A stretch of 64,000 nucleotides of DNA from assembly GCA_023910605.1 (NCBI GenBank), contig JAAVVV010000001.1, forward strand, positions 2,160,698-2,224,697, in the 5' to 3' direction. A program made the translations under genes and the position numbers. The stretch comes from Bosea sp. (in: a-proteobacteria). Lineage in GTDB: Bacteria > Pseudomonadota > Alphaproteobacteria > Rhizobiales > Beijerinckiaceae. The notes beneath the pieces were generated by a model, which was given only the letters and a program-made list of their open reading frames with translations, made no database searches and was not told where the DNA came from. This document shows positions 16,315 through 22,321 of the stretch, in pieces; the stretch's first letter is position 1; every line of letters starts with the position of its first letter.

Positions 16315-18018
16315 ATGGATTTACCCCTGAACACCTTGCCGGACGACGTGGATGCGCTCAAGGCGATGGTGCTCGCCCTGGCGCGTGCGCAGGCGCAAGG
16401 GGATGTTCGATTAAGAGCCGCGGAGGCTGAAATCGCCCGGCTGGAGGCGATCGAACAGAGCGCCAACGAGCGGATTGCCAACCTGACGCTGATCATGAAG
16501 GTCTTGCAGCGCGCGCAACATGGCAAGCGCTCTGAACGGCTCCGCGCCGGTGGTCCTGGGGTCCTCGACGACGAGCAGATTGCCTTTGCCTTCGAGGAGG
16601 TGGAGACCGGCCTTTCGAGCGTCCAGAGCGAACTCGACCGGGGCGCCAGGGACAAGCCGAAACGCGCTCCACGCCCGCGCAAAGGCTTTGCTGCGCATCT
16701 TGAGCGCATCGAGGAGGTCATCGAGCCGGAACTCCCCGCTGGATATGAGGGCCTGGAGAAGGTGCTGATCAGCGAAGACCGTTCCGAACGGCTCGATGTC
16801 ATTCCGCCGAAGTTCAGGGTCATCGTGACGCGCCGTCCCAAATATGCCTTCCGTGGCCATGACGGCGTGATCCAGGCGCTCGCACCGGCACACATCATCG
16901 AAGCCGGATTGCCAACGGAACGGCTGCTCGCCTTTATCGCGGTCTCCAAATATGCCGACGGTCTTCCGCTTTACCGTCAGGAGGCGATCTACCTGCGCGA
17001 CGGGGTCGAGATCAGCCGATCCCTGATGGCCCAATGGATGGGCCATCTTGGGTTTGAACTGCAGATACTGGCCGATTACATCCTCGAAAAGATCAAGGAG
17101 GGTGAGCGGATCTTTGCCGACGAAACGAGCTTGCCCACTCTGGCTCCCGGATCGGGGAAAGCAACCAAGGCCTGGTTATGGGCCTACGCGCGCGATGATC
17201 GCCCCTATGGCGGCACCAGTCCGCCAATGGTGGCCTATCGCTTCGAAGACGGCAGAGGCGCTGAATGTGTGGCCCGTCATCTGTCCGGGTACAACGGCAT
17301 CCTGCAGGTCGATGGATACGTGGCCTATAGCAGCCTTGCCAAGAGCCAGGCCAAGAGCCAGGCCAAGAGCCAGGCCAAGAGCCAGGCCAAGAGCCAGGCC
17401 AAGAGCCACGCCAAAAGCCAGGCCAAAACCGGCAGCACAGAAACGATGAGGCTTGCCGGATGCTGGGCGCATCTCAGGCGCAGGTTCTACGATCTGCACA
17501 TCAGCGGCGTCTCGCAGGCTGCCACGGACAGCGTCATGGCCATGACCGAGCTGTGGAGGGTCGAAGATGACGTGCGCGGCCGGAATGCAGACACCCGCGC
17601 GAAGCTCCGGCAGGAAAAGTCTGCGCCTGTCGTCGCGCGCCTCTTCGATCTTTGGGAACGGGAGCTCGGCAAGGTCTCCGGCAAGTCCAAGACGGCGGAA
17701 GCAATCCGCTATGCGCTCGCCCGCCGTGAAGCACTCGAACGGTTCCTCTCCGACGGTCGCATTGAAATCGACTCCAACATCGTCGAACGGGCCATCAGGC
17801 CCCAAACCATTACGCGAAAGAACAGCCTCTTTGCCGGAAGTGAAGGCGGTGGCAGGACCTGGGCTACACTGGGAACGCTTCTGCAAACCGCCAGGATGAA
17901 CAATGTCGATCCTCTCGACTGGCTGTCGCAAACCCTCGCGCATATCGCCCAAGGATGGCCCGCATCCAAAATCGACGCCCTCATGCCCTGGAACTTCAGG
18001 TCAAACGCCCTCAGCTAA
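16315..18018 (+). CDS. tnpC: IS66 transposase TnpC, copy 2
   Basis: 567-residue DDE transposase of IS66 copy 2, 12 residues longer than the copy-1 protein because of three extra KSQA units after the second catalytic Asp (ILQVDGYVAY). All three catalytic acids and the N-terminal coiled coil are intact, so this copy is probably active. The expansion lies in an insertion between core strands and may be tolerated as a flexible loop. Confidence 0.93.
   Translation: MDLPLNTLPDDVDALKAMVLALARAQAQGDVRLRAAEAEIARLEAIEQSANERIANLTLIMKVLQRAQHGKRSERLRAGGPGVLDDEQIAFAFEEVETGLSSVQSELDRGARDKPKRAPRPRKGFAAHLERIEEVIEPELPAGYEGLEKVLISEDRSERLDVIPPKFRVIVTRRPKYAFRGHDGVIQALAPAHIIEAGLPTERLLAFIAVSKYADGLPLYRQEAIYLRDGVEISRSLMAQWMGHLGFELQILADYILEKIKEGERIFADETSLPTLAPGSGKATKAWLWAYARDDRPYGGTSPPMVAYRFEDGRGAECVARHLSGYNGILQVDGYVAYSSLAKSQAKSQAKSQAKSQAKSQAKSHAKSQAKTGSTETMRLAGCWAHLRRRFYDLHISGVSQAATDSVMAMTELWRVEDDVRGRNADTRAKLRQEKSAPVVARLFDLWERELGKVSGKSKTAEAIRYALARREALERFLSDGRIEIDSNIVERAIRPQTITRKNSLFAGSEGGGRTWATLGTLLQTARMNNVDPLDWLSQTLAHIAQGWPASKIDALMPWNFRSNALS
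17341..17400 (+). repeat. 12-bp tandem repeat in tnpC (five perfect units)
   Basis: AAGAGCCAGGCC is repeated five times in a row, coding KSQA each time, followed by two variant units. The other IS66 copy has two perfect units (13086-13109) before the same variants. The difference of three units equals the whole 36-bp length difference between the elements. Confidence 0.95.
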
Positions 18019-20467: not shown

Positions 20468-20908
20468 CTAGCCCAGACGAGCCCGCGTGCTGCGGGGCGT
20501 GGCGAGCAGAAGGTTGGTTTCGGAGCCGGTGATGCCTTGGATCAGGCGGATGCGGCGCAGCGCCGCATCGAGCGCGGAAAGATCGAATGTCGCAAGTTCC
20601 GCGATCAGGTCCCACTTGCCGTTGGTGGTGTGGACTGCCGTGACCTCCGGAATGTTGCCGAGGCTGTCCACCACCCGGTCGGCCGCTCGGCCCTCGATCT
20701 CGATCAGCATCAGGCCGCGCACCGGCATGTCCACCGTCTCCGAGCGCAGGATCACCGTGTAGCCCACGATTTCGCCAGAGCGTTCCAGCCTCTCCATCCG
20801 CGCCCGCACTGTGGCGCGGGACAGCCCCATCTCGCCGGCGAGATCGGAGATGCTGCGCCGTCCATCATGGCGCAGAAGCTGGATGAGGCGCGCGTCGATG
20901 TCGTCCAT
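20468..20908 (-). CDS. Lrp/AsnC-family transcriptional regulator
   Basis: 146-residue feast/famine regulator. The N-terminal helix-turn-helix is plain (SISDLAGEMGLSRATVRARM, about residues 18-40), followed by the RAM ligand-binding domain (about 65-140, VTAVHTTNGKWDLIAEL). Divergent from the arginase gene with 150 bases between starts; this layout is usual for regulators that sense arginine, ornithine or another amino acid and switch on their breakdown. The inducer is not deducible. A 157-base stretch separates it from the SDR gene downstream and holds nothing recognised. Confidence 0.92.
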   Translation of the reverse strand: MDDIDARLIQLLRHDGRRSISDLAGEMGLSRATVRARMERLERSGEIVGYTVILRSETVDMPVRGLMLIEIEGRAADRVVDSLGNIPEVTAVHTTNGKWDLIAELATFDLSALDAALRRIRLIQGITGSETNLLLATPRSTRARLG

Positions 20909-21058: not shown

Positions 21059-21991
21059 ATGAACTGCGTGCTGATCGGAATGCCGGTCGCCGACGGAGCC
21101 GGTCGTGCAGGGGCGGATGCGGGTCCGCGCGCGCTGCGCGCCGCCGGCATTCGCGAGGCTCTGCAGGCCACCGGCGTCGCCGTTCACGACAGGGGCAACC
21201 TCGCTCTCGGCGAGGCCCGGCCTGAAGCTGGCGCTCACCCCAATCCTGCGCTCAAGGCGCTCAGTGAGGTCGCGGCCTGGACTGCGGCCATCGCCGATGC
21301 CGTCAGCGCGGTGCCCCATGGCCAGGTGCCGGTCATGCTGGGCGGGGATCACTCCATTTCCATGGGAACGCTGACGGGGCTGTCGCGCCGCGCGGCTGCG
21401 ATGGGCCGCCCGCTTTTCGTGCTCTGGATCGATGCGCACCCCGATTGCCACACCCTCGACACCACCGAAAGCGGCCATCTCCATGGCACGCCGGTCGCGT
21501 ATGCACTGGGTGTCGATGGTTTCGGCAAGGCCTTTCCCGCGGTCACGCAGACGCTTGCGCCGTCCCACCTCTGCATGATCGGCCTGCGCAGCATAGACGC
21601 AGCGGAAGCATCGCTCATCGCGCGGCTTGGCATCGAGGCCCACGCTGCGGCGGCTCTGACACGTCAGGGCGTGGCGGCGACGCTGGAGCCTTTTCTCGAG
21701 CGCGTGCGTGCCGCTAATGGCCTGCTGCATGTCAGCTTCGATGCCGACGCCATCGACCCCTCCGAGGCGCCGGGCGTCGGCACGCCAGTCGCTGACGGGC
21801 TCTCGCTCGGCGAGGCGCGCGCGATCATGGCCACCGTCCGTCGCAGCGGGCTTCTGGCCAGCCTCGATCTGGTCGAGGTCAACCCGTTTCTCGATCGCGA
21901 CCGCCGCACCGCCCGGCTGATGGCGAGCCTGGCGGCGGACGCCATCGATGCGCGTTCACGCGACTGCGGCAACCGGAGGGCTTCGGCATGA
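21059..21991 (+). CDS. rocF: Arginase
   Basis: Manganese enzyme splitting arginine into ornithine and urea, 310 residues, cytosolic. Metal ligands are visible: His98 (GGDHS), Asp125/His127/Asp129 (IDAHPDC), and the Asp pair of SFDADAIDPSEAPG. The last of these also holds the family signature. The start is the ATG after GGAGGA; an upstream frame extension is not needed. It is regulated probably by the divergent Lrp-type gene. The next gene on the same strand, ornithine cyclodeaminase, is broken, so ornithine must be handled elsewhere. Agmatinase and formiminoglutamase are related but arginase with ocd next door is the classic pair in this order. Confidence 0.92.
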   Translation: MNCVLIGMPVADGAGRAGADAGPRALRAAGIREALQATGVAVHDRGNLALGEARPEAGAHPNPALKALSEVAAWTAAIADAVSAVPHGQVPVMLGGDHSISMGTLTGLSRRAAAMGRPLFVLWIDAHPDCHTLDTTESGHLHGTPVAYALGVDGFGKAFPAVTQTLAPSHLCMIGLRSIDAAEASLIARLGIEAHAAAALTRQGVAATLEPFLERVRAANGLLHVSFDADAIDPSEAPGVGTPVADGLSLGEARAIMATVRRSGLLASLDLVEVNPFLDRDRRTARLMASLAADAIDARSRDCGNRRASA

Positions 21992-22021: not shown

Positions 22022-22321
22022 CTGAATGTCGTGCCCTTCGTAAGCGTGGACCAGATGATGCGTCTGGTGAACAGTCGCGGCATCGCGACCGTGCTGGCGG
22101 AACTGGCCTCTCGCATCGAAGCCGACTTCCGCCGCTGGCCCGACTTTGAGAAAAGCGCACGGCTGGCATCGCACAGCGCCGGCTTCGCCATCGAGGATTT
22201 CTCGGCGCTGAGCTATGTCCGGGATCAGCTCACCCATGCCGGCCTGTTCACCGGGCTCGACCTCGTCGCTGACCCTGACGATCCGCGGGATCTTTTCGGA
22301 ATGCTTCTGCGAGCCGCTTGA
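22022..22321 (+). pseudogene. Ornithine cyclodeaminase remnant with internal deletion
   Basis: The reading frame joins two ends of an ornithine cyclodeaminase (proline-forming, NAD-dependent). LNVVPFVSVDQMM and EADFRRWPDFEKSARLASHS are the family N-terminus. They are followed at once by GFAIEDFSALSYVRDQL and ADPDDPRDLFGMLLR, the family C-terminus. About 250 residues, including the whole NAD-binding and catalytic core, are missing, and the fusion is in frame (about 100 codons). No good start codon exists in this frame: the ATG overlapping the arginase stop (21988) is in a different frame. The deletion point is near 22183. Confidence 0.85.

Follow-up and report, generated by a model that had tools for sequence, protein, structure and literature searches.

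Organization of the locus

In the window (the whole stretch of 64,000 nucleotides that was analysed, whose numbering is used here for the cassette and its surroundings), a gene for an Lrp/AsnC-family regulator of 146 aa (20468..20908, minus strand), recognized through Pfam matches of the HTH_AsnC type and to AsnC_trans_reg, is oriented divergently from an arginase gene (21059..21991, plus strand). The arginase, identified with TIGR01229, has an open frame in which the alignment places the motifs GGDHS, DAHPD and SFDAD, and it proves to be unusually diverged in the test described below. Downstream, also on the plus strand, lies an open frame (22022-22321) whose translation comprises 99 residues and which corresponds to a severely shortened ornithine cyclodeaminase (OCD) gene, ocd. 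The original prediction had placed this shortened gene beside an arginase and its regulator, and both neighbors are indeed found.

Genes in the same order and orientation make up an alphaproteobacterial lrp/arginase/ocd cassette, as seen in a Beijerinckiaceae MAG (L101), in Microvirga makkahensis (L129) and in Kaistia dalseonensis (L079); the window differs from these in that its ocd is a remnant and its arginase is unusually diverged. Searches with tblastn yielded 132 fetched loci with an intact ocd, 112 of them distinct in DNA, and a stricter motif test retained 114 ocd loci that encode 91 distinct proteins, on which the counts given below rest. By tblastn, 40 of the 91 loci combine the regulator and the arginase with an intact ocd, and in some loci of this kind the spacing of arginase and ocd would accommodate a further gene; in many genomes of the genus, lrp and ocd occur together without an adjacent arginase of the kind present in the window. 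The existence of 91 intact genes and of 40 three-gene loci points to the descent of the remnant from an intact gene in the same setting, which is what a pseudogene calls for. Two genomes with no match to ocd (G066 and G068) carry arginases of 51% and 53% identity, flanked (L164, L167) by other long frames that look amidohydrolase-like by eye.

The remnant of ornithine cyclodeaminase

The profile NF005762 (ornithine cyclodeaminase, 334 positions) matches the 99-residue frame twice, at positions 1-50 and 291-334, and leaves positions 51-290, which include the NAD-binding region, unmatched. Although the whole-protein score of 101.5 bits (E 4.4e-29) falls below the curated cut-off of 350, a match in two pieces of this quality is far beyond chance. 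The OCD of P. putida (1u7h) also aligns in two pieces by HMMER, through chain residues 4-56 and 292-335. The first kept piece consists of the N-terminal 52 ocd codons (22022..22177, plus strand; LNVVPF...ASHS; profile positions 1-50), and the second of the C-terminal 46 codons with the stop (22181..22321, plus strand; GFAIEDFSAL...RAA; profile positions 291-334) or, when the stop is set aside, of 22181-22318, the two being fused in frame over 22022-22318. The frame is open throughout, and its G+C content by codon position (0.71, 0.43 and 0.76) is still gene-like. What the remnant shares with OCD, as represented by NF005762, by PF02423 (OCD_Mu_crystall) and by the P. putida structures 1u7h and 1x7d, is therefore limited to 50 profile positions at the N-terminus and 44 at the C-terminus, and what it lacks is the NAD-binding region, within a loss of approximately 242 codons. 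These two-piece matches confirm the earlier claim of an ocd gene reduced to its two ends by an in-frame deletion, and the unmatched central positions bear out the accompanying claim that the NAD-binding and catalytic core has disappeared.

In a published account of OCD (PMC3497308), Arg112, Lys69, Glu56 and Asp228 bind or act on ornithine, and Arg45 packs against it. Lys69, Arg112 and Asp228 fall between the two stretches matched by 1u7h and are absent from the remnant, in which the position of Arg45 is retained. The first of the HMMER stretches crosses the join and aligns a glutamate with Glu56; comparison with relatives assigns this residue to the FAIE motif of the C-terminal side, and the true Glu56 is almost certainly gone as well. 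Since these residues and the NAD-binding part are missing, the product cannot be a functional OCD, and the open frame 22022-22321 should not be annotated as an ornithine cyclodeaminase.

The internal deletion

From one serine codon at the join to the other, the missing segment amounts to 726 nt (242 codons) by comparison with 88 of the 91 intact relatives and to 723 nt (241 codons) with the other 3, so that the difference is always a multiple of three; one in three deletions keeps the frame by chance. The remnant retains His-Ser from the N-terminal side and Gly-Phe-Ala from the C-terminal side, and the join is thus confined to the few bases between them. On comparison with intact relatives it can be placed at 22172..22183 (plus strand), where His-Ser belongs to the N side and Gly to the C side and the intervening codons are ambiguous, the codon at 22178-22180 being assignable to either side.

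The in-frame join had been taken as a hint of recombination between short repeats. In its favor, the ends of the deletion lie within an in-register, imperfect repeat: an exact shared run of at least 5 bases is found near the join, in the same register, in 79 of the 91 relatives. By eye this run is mostly ATCGAG, from the GVIE and FAIE motifs, and it is located downstream of the join. At the join itself the agreement is poorer, with a shared run through the first base of the serine codon of 0 bases in 78 relatives, 2 in 2, 4 in 7 and 6 in 4, that is, of 2-6 bases in 13 of 91. Any true microhomology is unreadable at this distance from the nearest intact relatives, to which the best DNA identity is 0.72 for the N-terminal end and 0.78 for the C-terminal end, and the comparison gives no more than a faint hint of recombination between short repeats.

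The 5' end of the gene

The codon at 22022 is CTG, and no ATG occurs in the ocd frame between the arginase stop (TGA, 21989-21991), which lies in the same frame as the ocd body, and that body. An ATG at 21988..21990 (plus strand) overlaps the arginase stop and is preceded by GGAGG, an arrangement that is the usual layout for a coupled gene, and it is likely to have been the original ocd start. It now precedes the first ocd codon by 34 bases and is consequently out of frame, opening a frame of 53 codons. Among common start codons, the earliest in the ocd frame is a GTG (22031..22033, plus strand), directly upstream of which no Shine-Dalgarno-like sequence can be recognized by eye. In 90 of the 91 intact relatives, an in-frame ATG is kept at most 25 codons before the PFVSV motif. 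When judged from these rather distant relatives, a second small lesion at the 5' end is likely to have shifted the start frame. The gene thus presents two disabling features of the kind expected in a pseudogene, namely an internal loss of some 726 nt and the absence of an in-frame ATG.

Short and intact ocd genes among relatives

Matches to the remnant at 1e-8 are found in 43 of 67 genomes of the genus, its own included, and 24 have none. Among the other 42 matching genomes, 41 carry both halves in a single open frame, 357 residues long or longer, and the joined short form occurs in none; its own genome is thus the only one of the 67 to hold it. The same applies to the order, in which the short form was detected in 1 of 397 genomes drawn, again its own, at a threshold of 1e-22, which copies with unjoined halves are not expected to attain. 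The best 80 of 514 loci from named genomes comprise 78 full-length ocd genes and two (L115 and L124) cut by a contig end. Three loci with matches that looked like a single piece (L091, L133 and L145) were considered as other short copies and proved to be full-length ocd as well. On plasmids, ten of the 20 matches considered, out of 342, consist of two pieces approximately 1 kb apart, and two (H9 and H10) are single pieces across the whole query; H9 was rejected as a short copy upon proving to be an annotated ocd of 1050 nt.

One other truncated ocd was encountered in the genus, in G082 (L060, 25-1671). It evidently represents an independent event, as only the 3' end of the gene is left there, in contrast to the internal deletion of the window. 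By eye, this 3' end adjoins two ORFs that resemble an IS3-type transposase pair. The lack of a match in 24 of 67 genomes, together with the lone 3' piece of G082, suggests that ocd is often dispensable in the genus. None of the literature titles listed describes the present remnant, a statement confined to those titles.

Wear of the remnant and the nature of its product

With conservation in 95% of the 91 relatives as the criterion, the remnant departs from the consensus at 4 of 45 positions, the join codon being one of the four. When each of the same 91 relatives was left out in turn as a control, with references less than 75% identical, the highest value was 4/48 and the median 0/46. The figures are 6/52 against a top control of 6/54 at the 90% level, and 2/39 against 2/41 at the 99% level, so that at all three levels the remnant ranks, by a narrow margin, as the most deviant sequence among 92. 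Its ends reach a best identity of 0.71 to a relative, where the lowest nearest-neighbor identity among the 91 is 0.73. This closeness to intact, diverged genes suggests that the deletion is fairly young, which is probable on the strength of these comparisons. With regard to purifying selection, two tests on the 40 three-gene loci point in opposite directions: the ends are less conserved than the distance between Lrp regulators predicts (one of 40 loci is lower), and more conserved than predicted from the arginase distance (39 of 40 are lower); a single genome carries the short form.

The slight wear of the ends, the open frame and the gene-like codon composition count against a dead gene, as does the GTG at 22031, which could in principle start a product of 96 residues. 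Such a product would be a mini-protein under selection, in which the two ends of OCD fold together to act, for instance, as a regulatory partner. The ends stand near the most diverged intact relatives in conservation, and an AlphaFold2 model, built with 26 aligned sequences (pTM 0.63), has a mean pLDDT of 75.0, with most of residues 1-40 and 51-70 in blocks averaging 77-95, so that a helical product is possible according to the model. Nothing, however, favors a function. The pLDDT drops below 50 at residues 45-49, which is the join, and in a Foldseek comparison of the model with the PDB, in which E values were allowed to reach 10, all 53 matches listed were weaker than 0.001; 7cxs, aligned over 28 columns at E 6.3, was the sole chain of the OCD family noticed among them. 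Furthermore, the GTG lacks a visible ribosome-binding site, the ATG in the favorable position is out of frame, no OCD equivalog remains as a partner, and the short form is confined to one of the genomes searched in genus and order, whereas a conserved small protein should recur in relatives. A selected mini-protein, which had been put forward earlier as a second possibility, is therefore left unsupported and must be regarded as very improbable.

A similarly low probability is given to an artefact of assembly or culture, by which a clone or the assembly would have lost some 726 bp that the species still carries. The ends are little worn and only one genome of the species was available, as such an artefact would have it; on the other hand, the genome is assembled into 2 contigs with a completeness of 100, the out-of-frame start would require a second, separate error, and the diverged arginase next to the deletion is in keeping with a genuine change in the lineage.

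Very probably, then, the ocd remnant is a deletion pseudogene, an ordinary dead gene. In this lineage, the ocd of an old lrp/arginase/ocd cassette has been shortened by approximately 726 nt (242 codons) through an internal, in-frame deletion, and the start frame appears to have been lost as well, by a small change within the 34 bases that separate the ATG at 21988 from the ocd body; presumably nothing useful is made from what is left. Understood as a pseudogene, the remnant is a clear example, on a small scale, of how a gene is lost from a conserved cassette.

Fates of ornithine in the genome

The original prediction had further held that the usual next step after ornithine is missing, and had proposed a check for ocd or ornithine aminotransferase elsewhere in the genome. 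On that check, the NF005762 profile picked out no further OCD equivalog in the genome. Two full-length paralogues of the PF02423 family, at 588043 and 2832814 in C1 of the genome, were considered as a second OCD and rejected, with OCD scores of 123.4 and 64.0 against a cut-off of 350; the former exceeds the cut-off of the pyrroline/piperideine-2-carboxylate reductase profile NF004793 (390.7 against 322), and the latter lies above none of the 13 cut-offs shown. At locus L023 (262-3275), an OCD-family paralogue that is above no NCBIfam cut-off shown stands, by eye, between an enolase-superfamily-like frame and a substrate-binding-protein-like frame.

Five class-III aminotransferases are present in the genome, one of them of the ArgD type (L192), and among the matches listed for the five there is no ornithine aminotransferase above cut-off. 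L192 and L196 were rejected as candidates, scoring 285.9 and 198.2 with TIGR01885 against a cut-off of 378.4, and TIGR01885 is absent from the best 25 of 69 matches of each of L193-L195. The claim of a missing next step thus holds for a second OCD and, among the matches listed, for an ornithine aminotransferase, and ornithine is not necessarily a dead end in this genome. Two matches to PF02784 (decarboxylase) were found, one of which (L198) is above none of 7 cut-offs, its substrate being uncertain; proline dehydrogenase is present, and no match to AstA is found in the genome at E 0.01. Ornithine derived from the arginase would presumably now be diverted, for example into arginine synthesis, ArgD-type transamination or decarboxylation.

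The neighboring arginase

The divergence of the arginase was unforeseen, and it is the most interesting part of the locus. The gene had been described as intact, and with respect to its open frame, its conserved metal motifs and a TIGR01229 (rocF_arginase) score of 248.8 bits against a cut-off of 227.6, the description is accurate. It is at odds with the conserved positions, of which 26 of 108 differ, compared to 17/102 and 6/105 in those two controls, out of 40, that deviate most; in this test the controls were set against references less than 70% identical, and the window against all 40. Moreover, the residual of arginase identity given the distance between Lrp regulators is -0.156, below that of all 40 other cassettes (-0.036 to 0.063). 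Because the arginase has diverged further, relative to the Lrp distance, than any of its counterparts in 40 comparable cassettes, decay or a shift of the whole pathway is possible. The divergence itself may reflect a change of role or relaxed constraint, or the gene may be an acquired copy, as far as sequence comparison allows one to say.

These two measurements raise the idea that ocd was lost as part of a shift of the entire cassette, in which the arginase changed its specificity or role and ocd became unneeded, an explanation that is compatible with a pseudogene and that is considered unlikely, if well above the two alternatives weighed earlier. It has to contend with the metal motifs and the profile score above cut-off, with the fact that rapid change of the arginase could equally stem from relaxed constraint or from an acquired copy, and with the impossibility of distinguishing cause from effect. 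Somewhat less likely still is the more specific proposition that the arginase beside the dead ocd gained a new substrate or role, with the loss of ocd as a consequence, in which case a conserved catabolic cassette would have been caught in the middle of its rewiring. Should the divergence of the arginase prove to be functional, the locus would offer an instance of a catabolic pair changing together upon the loss of one partner.

Elsewhere in the window, a gene for an IS66-family transposase (16315-18018) carries an in-frame tandem repeat at 17338-17426, which consists of 7.4 copies of a 12-base unit and is read as repeated AKSQ.
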